Notes under the pieces: model-generated
What the model was told of the DNA's origin: nothing
The model's database searches: none
Seen by the model: the letters and a program-made list of their open reading frames with translations, nothing else
Assembly (NCBI RefSeq): GCF_003254465.1
Contig: NZ_QDFI01000008.1
Span: forward strand, 1-64,000
DNA: 64,000 nucleotides
From: Meridianimarinicoccus zhengii
Lineage (GTDB): Bacteria; Pseudomonadota; Alphaproteobacteria; Rhodobacterales; Rhodobacteraceae
Reading direction: 5' to 3'
Part shown: positions 1 through 6,044 of the stretch, in pieces
Position numbering within the stretch: the first letter of the stretch is position 1
Layout of the letters: each line of letters begins with the position of its first letter
Made by a program: the position numbers and the translations under genes

Positions 1-298
1 CGGGTCCGGCGGGCGCGGCAGGCACGCTCGCCGCCAGCGCCACGCCGCCCAGGATCGCCGGGGCGCCCAGTAGCCAGGACCCCGGCTGATCGCCCAGCAG
101 CATCGCCCATATCGCAGCCATCGCGCCCGCGGTGATGGCCGGCCCGCGCCAGCGCAGGTTGTGCGGCGGCGGGCGCTGCGCTTCTGGCGCCTCTGCAAAT
201 GGTGGATGCAGCGGCGTGACGGTCTGTGGCAGTTTTCCCGTCAACAGTGCTGGGGTCGCAGGCGTGGGATGGCCGTGGCGCGAAGGCGCTGCGGTCAT
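1..298 (-). CDS. Membrane protein, C-terminus outside window
   Basis: Partial gene read towards base 1; the visible 99 residues start at the ATG at 296-298. About 45 polar, proline-rich residues are followed by two hydrophobic stretches (from about residue 50 and about residue 70), so the product is an inner-membrane protein with a cytoplasmic-like N-tail. The spacing of the hydrophobic segments and a WLLGAP-type turn recall MnhE-like cation antiporter subunit E, but the similarity is weak and the rest lies outside the window. It sits behind a promoter (450-477) matching the ECF sigma factor's own promoter, so it may belong to that regulon. No function is assigned with confidence. Confidence 0.5.
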   Translation of the reverse strand, partial: MTAAPSRHGHPTPATPALLTGKLPQTVTPLHPPFAEAPEAQRPPPHNLRWRGPAITAGAMAAIWAMLLGDQPGSWLLGAPAILGGVALAASVPAAPAGP

Positions 299-569
299 GG
301 GGTTCCTTTCCGTGGCAGCTTGGGTCGCGGTCTGCCCCTGTCGCCGGGCTGCCTGTCCGGTGGGGTGTCTGCGATGGTCCGGCCCGTCCGTGTCACCGCC
401 CGGTCAGGGCGGACAGGGTGCGCGAAGGTCTCGCGGCATTCACGTGAAGACATACGCCGCGGGCGGCGAAATCATCCGCATCCTTCGAAAATTTTCTGCG
501 TTGCGGCGCCGTCTTGCAGCTGTGCAGACAGCCGCGCGTGTGCGGCTGCCGGGAAACGCGGCGGACGGG
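299..569. other. Intergenic stretch with promoter P1
   Basis: These 271 bases hold no convincing gene. They contain the ECF-type promoter P1 (450-477, minus strand) with an A/T-rich tract directly upstream of it (about 484-497). Short open frames here are GC-driven and lack ribosome-binding sites. Confidence 0.6.
450..477 (-). promoter_or_regulatory. Promoter P1, ECF sigma motif
   Basis: On the minus strand the sequence reads GGATGATTTC, 11 bases, then CGTATGT. The same two blocks at the same 11-base spacing occur in front of the ECF sigma gene (2387-2414), the DUF2333 gene (2484-2511) and a small DUF1127-like gene (4574-4601). An A/T-rich tract lies just upstream, as at the other copies. 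Transcription would run towards the gene starting at 298, leaving a leader of about 145 bases. The motif is seen directly; recognition by the adjacent sigma factor is inferred. Confidence 0.6.
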
Positions 570-1067
570 TCAGCCCGCGCTGCGGTCTGCCATCGCGGCC
601 GGCGCGGTCAGGTCGAACGCCTCCCGCGTGGCGCCGGTGCGATACTGAACGCGGGCGACAACGCCATAGCGGCATTCGAGCCGAATCTCGTCGGGCAGCG
701 GCGTGCCGTCTTCCGGTACGGGCAGCACCAGCAGCTCCCCTTCCGACCCATTCCCGTGCCGCTGCGGGGTATCGGACCCGAGCGCGAAGCGGACGGTCAC
801 ATCGCTGTCCAGACCGTCATGCCGGAACGGGCCAAGGCTGACATTGTGCCCCCCGGCCTTGCGCATCAGATCGCGCAGCGGCAGCGCCACGGGCGCCGGT
901 GCCGCGTCCAGCCCGCACGTCGCGATGGTCAGATGCGTGACCTGTCCCTTCGCCCGCATGTGCCCGGCCACGAAGCCGGCTGCCCCGGCAAGAATCGTGA
1001 CGCCAAGGCCCAACGCCAAGGTCCGCGCGGTCCAGCCGCGCGGCAGGTCAGCGGGAAAGGCCGACAT
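570..1067 (-). CDS. Membrane-anchored protein of sigma/anti-sigma operon
   Basis: 165-residue protein with one transmembrane segment near residues 17-38 and a larger C-terminal domain that should face the periplasm. It overlaps the anti-sigma gene by 20 bases and has a GAGGTG ribosome-binding site, so it is co-translated with the sigma and anti-sigma genes. I recognise no family. Its place as third gene of an ECF operon suggests an accessory role in signal sensing or anti-sigma stability, which is inference only. Confidence 0.65.
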   Translation of the reverse strand: MSAFPADLPRGWTARTLALGLGVTILAGAAGFVAGHMRAKGQVTHLTIATCGLDAAPAPVALPLRDLMRKAGGHNVSLGPFRHDGLDSDVTVRFALGSDTPQRHGNGSEGELLVLPVPEDGTPLPDEIRLECRYGVVARVQYRTGATREAFDLTAPAAMADRSAG

Positions 1068-1851
1068 TGCGGGTCACCTCGGCCGCTACGCTTTCGATCT
1101 GCACATCGCTCGTGTCCGCGATCACCGCGAAATCCAGCGTGGCATCGCTCCAGTAGCCGACACTGTTGCTGTCGTTGCGGGCGACCTGAAGCCCGGCCTC
1201 GGGCGCGCCTTCGGGATGGGGCATGACCACGAGAGACAGCCGGTTGCCGGACTGGTCCTCGTAGATGAACTGCGCCAGCGGGCCTTCGCGCGTGCCGGAC
1301 AGACGCGTGCCGACCAGGTCCAGCCCCAGCGCATCCAGTGCCGGGCTGGCGATCTTGCGCTTGAGCTTTTCCGACATCCAGTCGAGCGCCGCGGCCGTCG
1401 CCTCGGGCGTGAATTCCACCGGATACACCCTGTCTTCGGCGAAGACAGTATGCGCCCCCAGCCCCTCGGCCACGTAGGACGGATAGATGCCGTCGCCGGG
1501 CGCAAGCGTCATGTGCGCGCCCCAGCCCAGGGCGAACATCACGACACCCGCCGCCACTTGCCGGGACACGGGGCCGGTGATCGCCGCCTGCCAGCGGCGG
1601 CGCGACAGACGCGTGGCAAGCTGGCGTTCCAGCGCCGCGGTGCGCAGGCTGGTCGGGCCGGTATCCAGCGCACCCGCCGCCGCGCGGATCGCGTCGCGGT
1701 CGCCGATCATGGCGTCCACAGCCCGCCGAAATTCGGGGTCCGCAGTCAGCCGTGCCTCGACCTCGGCGGCCGCGTCCGGGCCGAGCCTGCCGTCGATATA
1801 GGCGTTCAGTTCTGGGTCCACATCCATCTGCGATGGGGTCTGAGAAGTCAT
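1048..1851 (-). CDS. Anti-sigma factor, membrane-bound
   Basis: 267 residues. The N-terminus starts with a DPELNAYIDGRL-type motif, typical of alphaproteobacterial transmembrane anti-sigma factors, and forms a helical cytoplasmic domain of about 90 residues. One transmembrane segment lies near residues 93-112, followed by a periplasmic domain of about 150 residues. It starts 13 bases after the ECF sigma stop codon, the usual arrangement for a sigma factor and its cognate inhibitor. No zinc-binding HxxxCxxC motif is visible, so it is not a ChrR/RsrA-type redox sensor. It probably holds the sigma factor at the membrane until an envelope signal triggers release. Confidence 0.8.
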   Translation of the reverse strand: MTSQTPSQMDVDPELNAYIDGRLGPDAAAEVEARLTADPEFRRAVDAMIGDRDAIRAAAGALDTGPTSLRTAALERQLATRLSRRRWQAAITGPVSRQVAAGVVMFALGWGAHMTLAPGDGIYPSYVAEGLGAHTVFAEDRVYPVEFTPEATAAALDWMSEKLKRKIASPALDALGLDLVGTRLSGTREGPLAQFIYEDQSGNRLSLVVMPHPEGAPEAGLQVARNDSNSVGYWSDATLDFAVIADTSDVQIESVAAEVTRNVGLSR

Positions 1852-1863
1852 CTGCGGATCCTT

Positions 1864-2361
1864 TCAGGCAATCAGATGCAGCTTGCCGCGCTTGATCTCG
1901 CCCAGCAGCTTTCGCAGGGCGGCGCGGCCACGGCCAAGCCGGGACATGAAAGTGCCAAGCGGCACATCGAGACTGCGCGCGGCGTCGGCGTAGGACATGT
2001 CCTCCAGCGCCACCAGCACGATGGGCTTGCGCTGCGCCTCGGGGATCTTCTCCAGCGCATCGAGAACCTGTTTCAGTTCCAGCGCCACGGCCTGGGTTTC
2101 CGGCATCACGGGTTCGGGCAGATCGTGGGCTGCGTCGGCGCGCACCTTCTGCTTGCGCAGGTTGCTGACATGGGTGTTGTGCAGGATGCGGAACAGCCAG
2201 GGCCGCAGGTCGGTGCCGGGCTGCCATGTATGCGCCTTGTCCAAGGCCTTGGCGAGCGTGTCCTGCACCAGATCCTCGGCATCGTCGCGGTTGCGCGTCA
2301 GCACCAGCGCATAGCGGCGCAATCCCGCGATCTGTTCGTGCAGATTGTCCTGCAAACCCAT
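1864..2361 (-). CDS. ECF-family RNA polymerase sigma factor
   Basis: 165-residue extracytoplasmic-function sigma factor. Region 2 is seen at about residues 8-75 (LRRYALVLTRN, DAEDLVQDTLAKAL, LRPWLFRILHNT) and region 4 at about 105-158 (helix-turn-helix with MSYADAARSLDVPLGTFMSRL). I chose the ATG at 2359-2361 because it has an AGGAGG site five bases upstream; the ATG at 2380-2382 would sit at the predicted transcription start. The gene is followed by its anti-sigma factor and preceded by promoter P2, which matches three other promoters nearby, implying positive autoregulation. No NepR-like gene is present, so it is not the PhyR/EcfG general stress system. Confidence 0.9.
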   Translation of the reverse strand: MGLQDNLHEQIAGLRRYALVLTRNRDDAEDLVQDTLAKALDKAHTWQPGTDLRPWLFRILHNTHVSNLRKQKVRADAAHDLPEPVMPETQAVALELKQVLDALEKIPEAQRKPIVLVALEDMSYADAARSLDVPLGTFMSRLGRGRAALRKLLGEIKRGKLHLIA

Positions 2362-2386
2362 CCGGCCCTCCTGTGTGGTCATAGGT

Positions 2387-2414
2387 ACATACGCCGGGTC
2401 ATCCGGTTTCATCC
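2387..2414 (-). promoter_or_regulatory. Promoter P2, ECF sigma autoregulation
   Basis: Reads GGATGAAACC, 11 bases, CGTATGT on the minus strand. The predicted start of transcription about seven bases downstream (near 2380) leaves a leader of about 20 bases before the sigma gene and excludes the upstream start codons. It is the motif copy that links the four-promoter set to this sigma factor. Confidence 0.65.
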
Positions 2415-2483
2415 CGCGCACGCGAAATTTTTCCGGCCATGGGGCTGAACCAAGGCCCTTTGTCGAATTTTGCGAAAATGCGC

Positions 2484-2511
2484 GGATGAAGGCCGGACCT
2501 GCCGCGTATGT
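2484..2511 (+). promoter_or_regulatory. Promoter P3, ECF sigma motif
   Basis: Reads GGATGAAGGC, 11 bases, CGTATGT on the plus strand, with an A/T-rich tract (GAATTTTGCGAAAATG) directly upstream. It is divergent from P2 with about 70 bases between the two boxes, and drives the DUF2333 gene at 2564 through a leader of about 45 bases. Confidence 0.65.
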
Positions 2512-2563
2512 CTGCCAATGAACAGCGCGGGACGTCTGCTCGCCGCGCACCAAAGGAGCGCAC

Positions 2564-3565
2564 ATGCCCAATGATGCCATAGCCAGCCCGTCGTCCCTTC
2601 CGGTGCCGCAGCCGCGGCGCAGGGTGGCGCGGGCCATTCTCGGAAAGAAGCCCGCCACCGTCGCCCTGCGCGGATCGGTTATTCTGGCCGTCCTGTTCGC
2701 GGGCTATTTCGGGGTGGTGGGGAACCTGATGAACAGGGTCGATGCGAACCCGGATTTCGCCCCGACCGAGGCCCCGGAAGCGGGGAGCGCGGCGGTGGCC
2801 ATGGCGGCGGCGCTGATCCGGCGCGAAACCGTGGATCATCGCTGGTCGGTCAACGATCCCGCCTTCTTTCCGACGGCGTTCCACGACAACATGCCGAATT
2901 TCCAGAACGGCGTGCTGCGCGGCGTGAGCCGTTTCGTCATGGCGCTGGAAAGCCAGATCGGTCGTACACGCGGCAGTTCGGCCATCGACGCAAATCTGGG
3001 GCGCGCGGTGGGATTGCTGCAATATCCGTCCGATGTGTGGATGTTCGATTTCCGCCAGTCCATGTTCCCGGTCTCTCCCTCGGACCAGCAGTACCGCGCC
3101 GCTCTCGAGGCGCTGGAAGCGTACAATGCGCGCGTCGCGCAAGGCGGTGCGGTGTTCGAGCGGCGCACCGATACGTTTGCGCTGACGCTTCAGGCGATGG
3201 CGGCGGAGCTGGGTGCACGCACGGCCGAGGTGGACGAGCATCTGCGCCGCGAGAGCTTCATCATAGACGGCCGCACCGACGACATATTCTATTTCAACAA
3301 GGGACAGGTCTATGCGAGCTACCTGCTCCTGCGGGAAATGGGGCGCGATTTCGAAGCGGTGATCAGCCAGCAGGGACTGACCGGCGTCTACGACCAAGCG
3401 CTCGACAGCCTGCGCACGGCGGCATCCCAGCGCCCGCTTGTGGTCCTGAACGCGGCGGGTGACGACAGCATTTTCGCGAACCACCTGTATCTGCAGGGCT
3501 TCTACATCAAGCGCGCGATCCTTCAGCTCGATGAAGTCTCGCGCGTCCTGTCCGTCAGCCGCTGA
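2564..3565 (+). CDS. DUF2333 family protein
   Basis: 333 residues. A polar N-tail of about 35 residues is followed by one transmembrane segment near residues 38-55 and a mainly helical domain matching DUF2333 (motif with FFPTAFHDNMPNFQNG near residue 105). The family occurs in proteobacterial envelopes and has no known biochemical role. It is transcribed divergently from the sigma gene under promoter P3 and is followed 45 bases later by a small membrane protein gene, with a strong terminator behind that. The context suggests an envelope-stress target of the sigma factor. Confidence 0.8.
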   Translation: MPNDAIASPSSLPVPQPRRRVARAILGKKPATVALRGSVILAVLFAGYFGVVGNLMNRVDANPDFAPTEAPEAGSAAVAMAAALIRRETVDHRWSVNDPAFFPTAFHDNMPNFQNGVLRGVSRFVMALESQIGRTRGSSAIDANLGRAVGLLQYPSDVWMFDFRQSMFPVSPSDQQYRAALEALEAYNARVAQGGAVFERRTDTFALTLQAMAAELGARTAEVDEHLRRESFIIDGRTDDIFYFNKGQVYASYLLLREMGRDFEAVISQQGLTGVYDQALDSLRTAASQRPLVVLNAAGDDSIFANHLYLQGFYIKRAILQLDEVSRVLSVSR

Positions 3566-3610
3566 ACGCGGCTGGCCCGACCCATTCACCAACCCAAAGA
3601 GGAGGGAACG

Positions 3611-3769
3611 ATGAGCACGACGAAAGATGACACCGGCACCGAGCTTGAAAGCAAGGCGGAAGATCTGAAGGCCCGGCTGATGCGCCCGCTGACGGTCACC
3701 GCACCGGTCTATGCCTTTGCGGCGGCGGGTATCGCGGTTCTGGCGCTGATCCTGGTGGCCATGGACTGA
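3611..3769 (+). CDS. Small single-span membrane protein
   Basis: 52-residue protein. It has a charged N-terminal half rich in D, E and K (about residues 5-22) and one C-terminal transmembrane segment (about residues 30-50). A strong AGGAGGGA ribosome-binding site precedes the ATG, and a GC-rich hairpin (3826-3852) follows. The layout of a charged helix plus a C-terminal membrane anchor resembles small envelope-stress proteins such as ElaB/YqjD, but it is too short to assign. It probably shares promoter P3 with the DUF2333 gene. Confidence 0.65.
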   Translation: MSTTKDDTGTELESKAEDLKARLMRPLTVTAPVYAFAAAGIAVLALILVAMD

Positions 3770-3825
3770 TCCGGGGCCGGAGGTCTGCCACTAATCCCGG
3801 TCGGTGTGGCCCGTCGGTCGGGAAG

Positions 3826-3852
3826 GACGCCGCCGCCCCCCGCGGCGGCGTC
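3826..3852 (+). terminator. GC-rich hairpin after DUF2333 operon
   Basis: An 11-base-pair perfect stem (GACGCCGCCGC against its complement) with a five-base C loop lies 57 bases after the small membrane protein gene. It has no clear U tract (it is followed by CGCTTGTCC), so termination may be only partly intrinsic. Confidence 0.55.
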
Positions 3853-3913
3853 CGCTTGTCCGGATGGTGTCTGACGGGTACCGCGTCGCGCGGCTGTCCG
3901 CGCGGAGACAAGG

Positions 3914-3942
3914 AAAAGCCCCGGCGCGGCATGCGTCGGGGC
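3914..3942 (-). terminator. Terminator of small minus-strand gene
   Basis: On the minus strand a six-base-pair stem (GCCCCG/CGGGGC, 3918-3923 with 3937-3942) is followed by TTTT. It lies about 30 bases after the stop codon of the small gene at 3972-4148. Confidence 0.5.
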
Positions 3943-3971
3943 GGGAATTGATGTCGGCGGCGGCTGTCGGA

Positions 3972-4148
3972 TCAGGCGTCGAAATATCCGAACATCTGGT
4001 CGAGCGGTTCGACCGGAGACGCATCGCGGCGCAGCGATGCTGCGGTAACGATGCGCAGGCGTGGGTCGAAATAGGCCGCGGTGTCCGTCGTCTCGTGGAT
4101 CGACGGGGCCGCGACCGCGGCGGGGATATGCTGTGCGCTGTGGATCAT
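3972..4148 (-). CDS. Small hypothetical protein
   Basis: 58-residue protein starting at the ATG at 4146-4148, which has a CAGGAG ribosome-binding site. It has no hydrophobic segment and ends in an aromatic, acidic tail (QMFGYFDA). It has its own terminator downstream and no ECF-type promoter upstream. I do not recognise a family; small proteins with such acidic tails are common in Roseobacter-group genomes. Confidence 0.5.
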   Translation of the reverse strand: MIHSAQHIPAAVAAPSIHETTDTAAYFDPRLRIVTAASLRRDASPVEPLDQMFGYFDA

Positions 4149-4256
4149 GTCTGGCTCCTGTGTCGGAGCCGTACAAATAATCTTTCGCACACCAGCGTAT
4201 ACCCGCCTCGATCGCAGCCCCGCTATCCGGTGACTGCATGGCGCTGCGCGTGACCG

Positions 4257-4547
4257 TCAGGCAGCGTGTCGGTTGTCCACGATCCGAAGCACGTCGTCAT
4301 GGACGATCCGCTTCTGCTCGGCGTGCTCGGCCAGGTGATCGACGTCCAGTGCCAGTGTCGCCCGGTTCAGTCCGATGCGGCCGAGCTGACGATCGTTGAG
4401 CCGCGCCAGCGCGCAGGTGATGGTGATCATGTCGCGCTCCGTCTGCGCTGCCTCGCGCCGTTCGCGCAGCCGCCCGAGGAAGCCGATGCCGGCATGGCCG
4501 CCCGGTTGAATGTCCGCGCGAGAATTCCTGCGTGTATTCCAGAACAT
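4257..4547 (-). CDS. DUF1127-like small protein, ECF target
   Basis: 96-residue basic and polar protein. A DUF1127-like segment with the pattern of alternating leucines and RLNDRQLGRIGLNR lies near residues 40-66. The ATG at 4545-4547 has a perfect AGGAGG site. Promoter P4 (4574-4601) matches the sigma factor's own promoter, leaving a leader of about 20 bases. DUF1127 proteins in other Alphaproteobacteria are small, stress-linked and RNA- or phosphate-related; the role here is unknown. Confidence 0.6.
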   Translation of the reverse strand: MFWNTRRNSRADIQPGGHAGIGFLGRLRERREAAQTERDMITITCALARLNDRQLGRIGLNRATLALDVDHLAEHAEQKRIVHDDVLRIVDNRHAA

Positions 4548-4573
4548 CGTTGCACCTCCTTGAGTTCTACATG

Positions 4574-4601
4574 ACAAACGCGGCGCTGCGCGGTTTCATC
4601 C
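4574..4601 (-). promoter_or_regulatory. Promoter P4, ECF sigma motif
   Basis: Reads GGATGAAACC, 11 bases, CGTTTGT on the minus strand: the upstream block is identical to that of the sigma gene's promoter P2 and the downstream block differs by one base. An A/T-rich stretch (GCGAAAATAAA) lies just upstream. It drives the DUF1127-like gene. Confidence 0.6.
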
Positions 4602-4707: not shown

Positions 4708-5937
4708 ATGGTACTGACACGCAGAACGATGGGACTGTCGCTGGTGGCGGCGACGCTGGCCGCCTGTGCGGGTAGCGGAACCGTGGCGCCTGCGGACCCC
4801 GCGATGCAGCCCGTGCCCAATGCCGGGTTCGATGGTTGGCTTGCAGGGTTCCGGGGCCGGGCGCGGGCGCAGGGCGTATCGCCCACGGTGGTGGATCGGG
4901 CGTTGGCGGATGCGGGGTTTCTTCCCGGCGTGGTCGAACGCGACCGCAACCAGACGGAGTTCACCCGCAGCCTCGACGACTACCTTGCCATCGCCGCATC
5001 GGACAAACGCGTCACCGACGGGCGTGCGGCGCTGCGCCAGTATCGCGGCGCACTCGACGCGATCTCGGCGCGGTTCGGCGTGGAGCCGGAGGTCATCACC
5101 GCGATCTGGGGGCTGGAAAGCAGCTATGGCACGCGGCGCGGCGACATCCCCGTGGTGTCCGCCGTGGCGACGCTGGCCTATGACGGGCGGCGCGGCGCGT
5201 TCTTCGAACAGCAACTCGTGGCGGCGCTGAAAATCCTCGAAGCGGGCGACACCACACCCGAGCGTATGGTCGGAAGCTGGGCCGGGGCGATGGGACATAC
5301 CCAATTCATCCCGACCTCGTATCTGGCCTTCGCGGTGGATTTCACCGGCGACGGCCGGCGCGATATCTGGTCGGATGATCCCAGCGACGCGCTGGCCTCT
5401 GCCGCGGCCTACCTGCAACGTTCCGGCTGGACGCGCGGCCAGCCCTGGGGGGTGGAGGTGCAATTGCCCGCCGGTTTCTCGGGTCCCGTCGGGCGCGGCA
5501 CGACCCGCAGCCCCGCGCAATGGGCCGCGGCGGGCGTGCGCGACATGGATGGCCGCCCGGTGCCGGATCATGGGGCCGCGTCGATCCTGCGGCCCGCGGG
5601 GGCGTCCGGTCCGGCCTTCATGGTGTTTCGCAACTTCACCGTCATCACGCGCTACAACAACTCGGAAAGCTACGTGATCGGCGTGGGGCACCTGTCGGAC
5701 CGGATCGCGGGCGGTCCGCCCTTCCGCGGCAGTTTTCCGCCCGATGCGCAGGGGTTCGATCTGGCCGCGCGCAAACGGCTGCAGGAACGGCTGACGGCGG
5801 CGGGATACGATACCGGCGGTGTGGATGGCGTGCTCGGGTCGCGCAGCCGCGCCGCGATTTCCGACTATCAGCGCGAGAATGGCCTGCCCGTCACGGGCGT
5901 GCACAGCCGCGACCTGCTGGCGCGGCTGGGGGGCTGA
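4708..5937 (+). CDS. Lytic murein transglycosylase, MltB family
   Basis: 409-residue lipoprotein that should cleave glycan strands of peptidoglycan to 1,6-anhydro products in the periplasm. Residues 1-20 form a lipoprotein signal ending in LAAC (Cys20). The SLT-type catalytic domain spans about residues 40-330, with the catalytic glutamate in GLESSYG (about residue 137), and a C-terminal peptidoglycan-binding domain spans about 345-405. I chose the ATG at 4708, which has an AGGGAGAGG ribosome-binding site and gives an intact signal peptide. It is monocistronic, with a terminator hairpin 18 bases after the stop. Confidence 0.9.
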   Translation: MVLTRRTMGLSLVAATLAACAGSGTVAPADPAMQPVPNAGFDGWLAGFRGRARAQGVSPTVVDRALADAGFLPGVVERDRNQTEFTRSLDDYLAIAASDKRVTDGRAALRQYRGALDAISARFGVEPEVITAIWGLESSYGTRRGDIPVVSAVATLAYDGRRGAFFEQQLVAALKILEAGDTTPERMVGSWAGAMGHTQFIPTSYLAFAVDFTGDGRRDIWSDDPSDALASAAAYLQRSGWTRGQPWGVEVQLPAGFSGPVGRGTTRSPAQWAAAGVRDMDGRPVPDHGAASILRPAGASGPAFMVFRNFTVITRYNNSESYVIGVGHLSDRIAGGPPFRGSFPPDAQGFDLAARKRLQERLTAAGYDTGGVDGVLGSRSRAAISDYQRENGLPVTGVHSRDLLARLGG

Positions 5938-5955
5938 TCCGCCCTGAACGCGGAA

Positions 5956-5977
5956 CGCCCGCCGGTTTCGGCGGGCG
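5956..5977. terminator. Hairpin between convergent genes
   Basis: A perfect nine-base-pair stem (CGCCCGCCG with CGGCGGGCG) with a GTTT loop. It lies between the convergent transglycosylase gene and the amino-acid ABC operon and could stop transcription in both directions; there is no strong U tract on either side. Confidence 0.6.
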
Positions 5978-6044
5978 TGGACGCTTTGGTCGATGACGTG
6001 CGCAAGGCCGCCCCGGTCCGCCAGGAACCGGGGCCTCCCGGCCC

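Follow-up and report, generated by a model that had tools for sequence, protein, structure and literature searches.

The window analysed here, 64,000 nucleotides (nt) of Meridianimarinicoccus zhengii that form the start of contig C199 of its genome (NZ_QDFI01000008.1), carries near its left end a small group of genes arranged around an extracytoplasmic function (ECF) sigma factor (in the following, L numbers denote loci, G numbers genomes and C numbers contigs of the M. zhengii genome). The sigma gene (1864..2361, minus strand) encodes a protein of 165 amino acids (aa) with matches to Pfam Sigma70_r2 and Sigma70_r4_2, and the genes for a membrane anti-sigma factor (1048..1851) and a second 165-aa protein (570..1067) follow on the same strand. 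Towards the contig edge, this strand encodes the N-terminal 99 aa of mnhE (MrpE; 1..298), whereas a DUF2333 gene (2564..3565, plus strand) is transcribed divergently from the sigma gene, and a 96-aa DUF1127-like protein is encoded at 4257..4547 (minus strand). Four copies of a bipartite motif are found without mismatch where an earlier note on this DNA had placed them, i.e. at 450-477 (minus), 2387-2414 (minus), 2484-2511 (plus) and 4574-4601 (minus). As far as sequence comparison reaches, there is good support for reading them as promoters of the ECF sigma factor encoded nearby.

The sigma protein comprises the sigma2 and sigma4 regions only (165-172 aa, based on Pfam), which fits group IV of the sigma70 family. 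Judged by its AGGAGG ribosome site and the orthologues, the gene most likely starts at 2361 rather than at 2382, and the promoter-to-start distance is thus 25 nt, as for most orthologues. The top Pfam match is the PhyR sigma2 domain, and the top NCBIfam match (PRK12511 RNA polymerase sigma factor, 171 bits, residues 12-159) misses its cut-off of 185. We scanned 84,980 species genomes for sigma relatives and kept the best 80 of 117. The close orthologues amount to 32 loci (L031-L061 and L080) with 58-78% identity to the window sigma factor, and their hosts are Rhodobacteraceae in the wide sense, one Ectothiorhodospira and one metagenome-assembled genome of Geminicoccaceae.

The presence of one copy in front of the sigma gene itself (2387-2414, minus), which would make it the autoregulatory promoter of the sigma/anti-sigma operon, recurred in all 32 close orthologue loci. 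A second site in the opposite direction was also present in each of them; as we chose the top match on each strand in the 330 bp upstream of sigma, this count of divergent pairs is partly selected. The resulting 64 orthologue sites yielded the refined consensus GGATGAAA-N12-GCGTWNTT, in which GGAT and CGT are invariant (64/64) and GGATGA and CGT are 15 nt apart. The C claimed three bases after GGATGA in the earlier note is conserved in only 56-69%. With a scoring matrix trained on these 64 sites, the window being excluded, the window sites scored 28.9 (2387-2414), 28.1 (4574-4601), 26.1 (2484-2511) and 20.7 (450-477), and no further site in the window reached 12. Leave-one-out scores of the training sites ranged from 12.4 to 30.0, with minima of 15.6 on the sigma side and 12.4 on the other side. 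Control loci with other ECF genes (n = 43; 463,638 bases) held three sites scoring at least 15. The upstream regions of 41 outgroup ECF sigma genes were without a site, their best score being 13.9, and 30 of the 32 divergent-side sites exceeded this value.

An A/T tract upstream of every copy, also proposed in the earlier note, turned out to be uneven in the window, with A+T fractions of 0.73, 0.64, 0.64 and 0.45 at -22 to -12 before GGATGA. For the orthologue sigma promoters, the mean A+T fraction 12-22 nt upstream of GGATGA was 0.63 compared to 0.35 further upstream; on the DUF2333 side, the enrichment was hardly marked (0.53 versus 0.43). Between the divergent promoters of the window (2415..2483), A/T tracts are located at about 2426-2436 and 2462-2472.

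We then related the motif to the phylogeny and distribution of the sigma factor. In a tree that leaves out L092 and L097, both relatives belonging to the species of L091, the 33 close, motif-bearing rows form one clade with a support of 98/94. Co-occurrence of motif and sigma factor also emerged from genome scans: the orthologue-derived pattern GGATGAA-N13-GCGTWNKY was present in 31 of 32 sigma-bearing genomes, compared to 74 of 245 family genomes without a close orthologue. The sigma-bearing genomes contained 93 matches to the pattern and three to its reversed form, and at least two matches within 10 kb were found in 24/32 of them versus 0/245 of the family genomes without a close orthologue. 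In a sample of 248 genomes of the family, a close orthologue (at least 63% identity) is encoded in three, namely M. zhengii itself (G000; four pattern matches, one of them a coding match on C175), G025 (the genome of L048; seven matches) and G037 (the genome of L045; two matches), while five more hold matches of 41-46% identity. Pattern matches away from the sigma loci fell into 26 regions, 24 of which were fetched; the remaining two, in G263, are identical in sequence to sites of G261. Among the first 12 regions (L148-L159), chosen by eye as promising, ten have the site upstream of a regulon-family gene (with an uncertain distance to mnhE in L155), whereas the site of L153 precedes an ABC transporter gene and that of L158 no clear gene. 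These ten may be regarded as the more independent part of the co-occurrence test.

The same data bear on the alternative that the sites are promoters of another sigma factor, for example EcfG or a second ECF factor, and that the neighbouring sigma gene is one target among others. This view could draw on the -10 element CGT(A/T), which resembles the CGTT of EcfG, on the PhyR sigma2 domain as best Pfam match of the window sigma factor and on sites lying far from the sigma gene in some genomes. We nevertheless consider it improbable, because none of the 245 family genomes that lack a close orthologue has a clustered site pair, the site follows the clade of this sigma factor on the tree, the -35 element GGATGA is unlike GGAAC, and the ECF paralogue of the M. 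zhengii genome (L147) has no site upstream.

It is even less probable that the motif represents an operator of a DNA-binding regulator, with the two boxes 15 nt apart serving as half-sites. Two conserved boxes at fixed distance in a divergent intergenic region would suit an operator, but they are neither mutual repeats nor palindromic and are oriented towards the gene, their spacing and GGA/CGT form suit ECF promoters, and the only regulators among the genes compared between loci are the sigma and anti-sigma factors.

Across the 4,597,081 bases of the M. zhengii genome, GGATGA-N15-CGTWTGT has exactly four exact matches, which are the four window copies, within 4.2 kb. If up to two mismatches are allowed, 0.69 matches are expected in the window and four were reached in one of 100 shuffles; the observed four are all exact. 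When all 53 matches to a looser pattern in this genome were scored, the window copies ranked 1-4, followed by a match within a coding open reading frame (ORF) at C175:7050 (20.3). The motif set is no artefact: chance or coding-sequence bias in a GC-rich genome, to which the low rate of the pattern within ORFs (12 off-locus regions and C175:7050) might point, has a negligible probability, given four exact copies in 4.2 kb of 4.6 Mb, all of them intergenic, and a conservation before the sigma gene in 32/32 orthologue loci that contradicts it.

Regarding the downstream genes, the description as genes for envelope or small proteins given in the earlier note was understated, since the 450-477 site heads an Mrp antiporter operon. 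This site, an exact match to the motif, is located upstream of the mnhE start (298) across a leader of 151 nt. The gene is split by the assembly, with one half at the start of C199 and the other at the start of C184 (C184:7-393, plus). Full-length orthologues match PF01899 (MNHE), and the C-terminal part (C184:43-312; PF01899, 67 bits) is followed by mrpF, mrpG, mnhB, mnhC and mnhD. Based on Pfam (MNHE, MrpF_PhaF, PhaG, MnhB/MbhD, Oxidored_q2 and Proton_antipo_M), C184 thus carries an Mrp-type Na+/H+ antiporter operon in the order E-F-G-B-C-D. Although mnhE was not a training gene, an upstream site was found in 18 of the 19 orthologue loci that show it (16 detected automatically, plus L032 and L031, the latter with an unsure start). 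The other two mnhE copies of the M. zhengii genome (contigs C13 and C2; L111 and L112) have no site.

The site at 2484-2511 (plus) is the predicted divergent promoter of the DUF2333 gene, which stands back to back with the sigma promoter. All 31 orthologue loci holding this gene have the site (scores 14.3-28.1), these being training sites. Sites stay with their genes upon relocation, as seen in genome G265 (L148), where a relocated DUF2333 gene retains its site (26.5). DUF2333 homologues are present in five of 248 family genomes. Three of these genomes bear the sigma factor; in the other two, which do not (L164 and L165), the homologue has 32% identity and no site. The window protein (PF10095, 65 bits) is helical with an N-terminal hydrophobic helix in an AlphaFold2 (AF2) model (predicted local distance difference test score, pLDDT, 78). 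This model, built from 28 sequences, matched no PDB structure at E<=0.001, and we therefore propose no function for DUF2333; among the publications listed, one mentions this domain. Downstream, a 52-aa ORF with one hydrophobic stretch (3611..3769, plus) is possibly co-transcribed; no homologue was found in the orthologue loci searched.

The fourth site (4574-4601, minus) is the predicted promoter of the DUF1127-like gene, which starts 26 nt past it. The encoded proteins form a conserved family by alignment, in which the spacing of conserved residues is like that of DUF1127; 5 of 25 members matched PF06568 at E<=0.1 (best E 0.0022, 18.2 bits versus a cut-off of 23.3), and the window protein gave no match. 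A direct site precedes 15 of 26 such genes (in L048, it is shared with a training site), ten lie just past DUF2333 on the same strand and one is at a contig edge. Sites were further found upstream of a gene for an SPW-like small membrane protein (7/7), of an AAA_15-type ATPase gene (740-790 aa; 9/9 with enough upstream DNA, leaving out L041 and L042 at contig edges; weak in L040 with 15.7 and L080 with 18.6) and, in a single genome (L150), of a dynamin-like GTPase gene. Like mnhE, the DUF1127-like, SPW-like and AAA ATPase genes had not entered the training set, apart from the shared site of L048. At the level of sequence, these comparisons establish the conservation of the promoters, their tie to the sigma factor and the identity of the downstream genes.

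An anti-sigma gene lies beside the sigma gene in 31 of the 32 close loci, the exception being L043 at a contig end. The window protein has weak NCBIfam anti-sigma matches below cut-off, and its predicted architecture comprises a sigma-binding domain, a transmembrane helix and a periplasmic RseB/MucB-like domain. In its AF2 model (pLDDT 85), the helical residues 12-66 align with the region of ChrR that binds sigma (Z 6.2 over 54 residues, a middling value), and the helix 94-113 fits a membrane span. For the C-terminal domain, the structural match is to the C-terminal portion of RseB (chain residues 218-315; Z 9.5, 2.5 Å, 95 residues, 16% identity) and also to MucB, both of them sensors of periplasmic stress. 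By sequence, the family had no convincing match in the PDB (best E 0.06) and none to RseB/MucB. On the basis of the model, the anti-sigma factor may be a membrane protein whose periplasmic part senses the envelope state. The third gene of the operon encodes a protein with a hydrophobic N-terminal stretch recognized by eye and no Pfam match; in some orthologue loci, homologues are encoded downstream of the anti-sigma gene. A soluble 98-aa protein related to the anti-sigma domain is encoded at L148:4366-4659 (minus) and L149:4446-4739 (minus); its gene has a strong site of its own and lies just before the AAA ATPase gene, which also has a site. As a member of the regulon in these two loci, it is a possible second brake.

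Taken together, we consider it highly probable that the ECF sigma factor encoded at 1864-2361 (minus) recognizes the four copies as -35/-10 promoters; an envelope-sensing anti-sigma factor would release this sigma factor, thereby raising expression of the Mrp, DUF2333 and DUF1127-like genes. We infer the binding of the sites by this sigma factor, the mode of its release, the signal and the physiological role from the comparisons described above. In the resting cell, the sigma factor would be held by the membrane anti-sigma factor encoded by the adjacent gene. It would be freed once the periplasmic RseB/MucB-like domain senses a signal from outside the inner membrane, and together with RNA polymerase it would transcribe its own operon, a positive feedback in which the inhibitor is made along. 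The freed sigma factor would also drive the divergent DUF2333 gene, the DUF1127-like gene and the mnhE-led Mrp-type Na+/H+ antiporter operon, so that ion and pH balance and the envelope would be protected under Na+ or alkaline stress. We therefore propose a Na+/pH envelope-stress regulon, the presumed signal, Na+ or high pH, being deduced from the Mrp operon and the habitat of the hosts. The codes CSSed, CSBr, T3Sed10 or B1Sed10 appear in 13 of the 32 close locus titles (raw count). CSSed10/CSSed11, T3Sed10 and B1Sed10 refer to Kulunda soda lakes (PMC6146748); in our reading of the prefix, CSSed16 and CSBr16 would come from the same lake as CSSed10/CSSed11.

Several observations weigh against this interpretation. 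The co-occurrence pattern was made from the same orthologue loci, and its high rate beside sigma genes is therefore partly circular; the reversed-pattern control is imperfect, and sigma-less genomes are still positive (74/245). The later 12 of the 24 off-locus regions hold coding matches only, all inside ORFs, for which reason they were taken as chance together with C175:7050. The divergent sites of L042 (12.4) and L038 (13.8) fall under the best outgroup score of 13.9. The mnhE site of the window, the weakest of the four, deviates past GGATGA, and its score alone cannot tell it apart from the coding match (20.7 versus 20.3); the mnhE gene of L039 has no site at all. Among more distant relatives, the Skermanella loci L062 and L063 have no site directly before the sigma gene, and the sigma homologue of L066 is likewise without one. 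For DUF2333 and the DUF1127-like protein, no function was found. The suggested Na+/pH role is derived from the Mrp operon and raw habitat names, and Mrp complexes have other roles besides Na+/pH.

Other distant sigma genes do have the site (L064 and L065, 50-51% identity), and in the two Skermanella loci it lies upstream of the homologue of the 165-aa protein (22.9 in L062 and 25.1 in L063). A further site of L062 (27.7) precedes an rpoH gene (TIGR02392, 335.6 bits versus a cut-off of 323.1) whose end lies 65 nt upstream of the sigma gene; L063 has a like sequence at the rpoH position, where the corresponding site is weak (16.5). The arrangement suggests an ECF-to-RpoH cascade in Skermanella. 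The L062 sites are located at 4960-4987 and 4325-4352. In the gammaproteobacterium Ectothiorhodospira haloalkaliphila (L039), genes for the sigma factor (70% identity), the anti-sigma factor, DUF2333 and the DUF1127-like protein are present with sites, and this module was likely acquired by horizontal transfer.

A second layer of control may reside in the mnhE leader. In an Rfam scan of L062, L063 and 17 close loci (out of 32), we detected the terC RNA (RF03067, threshold 39.9 bits) in the mnhE leader of 11 orthologue loci, between ECF promoter and gene (L047:7698-7758, L048:4536-4596, L049:8026-8085, L051:7508-7568, L053:4576-4636, L054:7698-7758, L055:8055-8115, L057:8057-8117, L058:7731-7790, L059:6648-6707 and L061:9322-9381). 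At the same threshold, there was none in the window leader or elsewhere in the M. zhengii genome. The RNA exceeded the cut-off in 14 of 80 family genomes searched, and at 12 loci from this search the first ORF past it encoded a TerC-family protein (PF03741) in nine cases, and in the other three MnhE (L177, from the sigma-bearing G025), a Bax1-I protein (L184) and an unassigned product (L174). For the 11 leaders, the ribosome site can alternatively pair with the 3' strand of the terC stem, and more stably than swapped partners do (-13.65 kcal/mol versus -11.93 kcal/mol; permutation p 0.001, control pair p 0.51), the p value being merely indicative because the leader sequences are related. The window leader (299..449, minus), which has no Rfam match, has GCTGCC immediately ahead of the ribosome site and GGCAGC where a hairpin loop may form, a pair shared with L032 and most terC-type leaders; L031 was left out of leader comparisons, as the ATG that ends its leader is out of frame with mnhE. 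A variant RNA switch is thus possible in the window leader.

Tentatively, the clade could be read as a distinct, uncharacterised ECF lineage with a promoter type of its own, acting as a dedicated switch for envelope stress by Na+ or alkalinity, with a one-piece anti-sigma factor whose periplasmic RseB-like sensor is built in and with raised Mrp, to which part of the clade would add control by the terC RNA. If true, one ion pump would be under both transcriptional and RNA-level control, the terC stem alternatively sequestering the ribosome site.

Next to these genes, MltB is encoded at 4708-5937; we rejected this gene as a further target, because the 4574-4601 site points away from it and the window has no further site; in the 37 loci searched by tblastn, it had no match, bar a partial one in L066. 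Behind it, positions 5952-5982 gave a weak CRISPR-repeat-like Rfam match (22.5 bits versus a cut-off of 45; E 0.16), and by its GC-rich hairpin look this segment is probably a terminator.

RpoE/RseA of Escherichia coli and RpoE/ChrR of Rhodobacter are the general models of autoregulated ECF sigma/anti-sigma modules. The present module resembles them in its sigma2 plus sigma4 protein, adjacent anti-sigma gene, autoregulated operon and few targets. It differs in its promoter (GGATGAAA-N12-GCGTWNTT) and in targets that include Mrp and DUF2333. In contrast to RpoE/RseA, with its separate RseB protein, an RseB/MucB-like domain (a fold match only) is here fused to the anti-sigma factor itself, and the alignment leaves the remainder of RseB unmatched. 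EcfG factors (ECF15), which serve the general stress response, have a GGAAC -35 element and adjacent NepR/PhyR. The GGA...CGT(T/A) layout and the similarity to the PhyR sigma2 domain model are shared with them, whereas the -35 element GGATGA sets the motif apart from the GGAAC/CGTT type, in agreement with the earlier note. Moreover, the adjacent anti-sigma factor, a predicted membrane protein, is distinct from NepR, neither NepR nor PhyR was found among the ten window ORFs scanned with Pfam, and the window sigma factor is rare in its family (3/248 genomes at >=63% identity). Rhodobacter RpoE (ECF11) combines a TGATCC-type -35 element with a cupin-bearing ChrR anti-sigma factor; the window motif is unlike this type too, as had been pointed out before, and the anti-sigma factor has an RseB-like C-terminal fold instead of a cupin match (Pfam). 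Of other ECF groups that also occur in alphaproteobacteria, the published motifs, GGAATA/GT for ECF26 and GGGAAC/GCATCCAA for ECF29 (PMC6180224) and GTAAC-N14-15-CG for EcfF (ECF16; PMC3420878), do not match the window motif when compared by motif.

Literature searches on the motif, and on ECF factors combined with Mrp, alkaline, haloalkaliphilic or Rhodobacterales, returned nothing on this sigma factor, this motif or an ECF-controlled Mrp operon, judged by title and start of abstract among the matches listed. The analysis offers a small candidate regulon with a sharp promoter consensus for an ECF clade rare in its family, and a testable answer to how haloalkaliphilic Rhodobacteraceae turn on one particular Mrp antiporter among several. 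DUF2333 and the DUF1127-like family gain a regulatory context, and the promoter might be an orthogonal part for synthetic circuits. Compared to the known systems, this apparently uncharacterised regulon combines an ordinary ECF architecture with an unusual promoter and target set.

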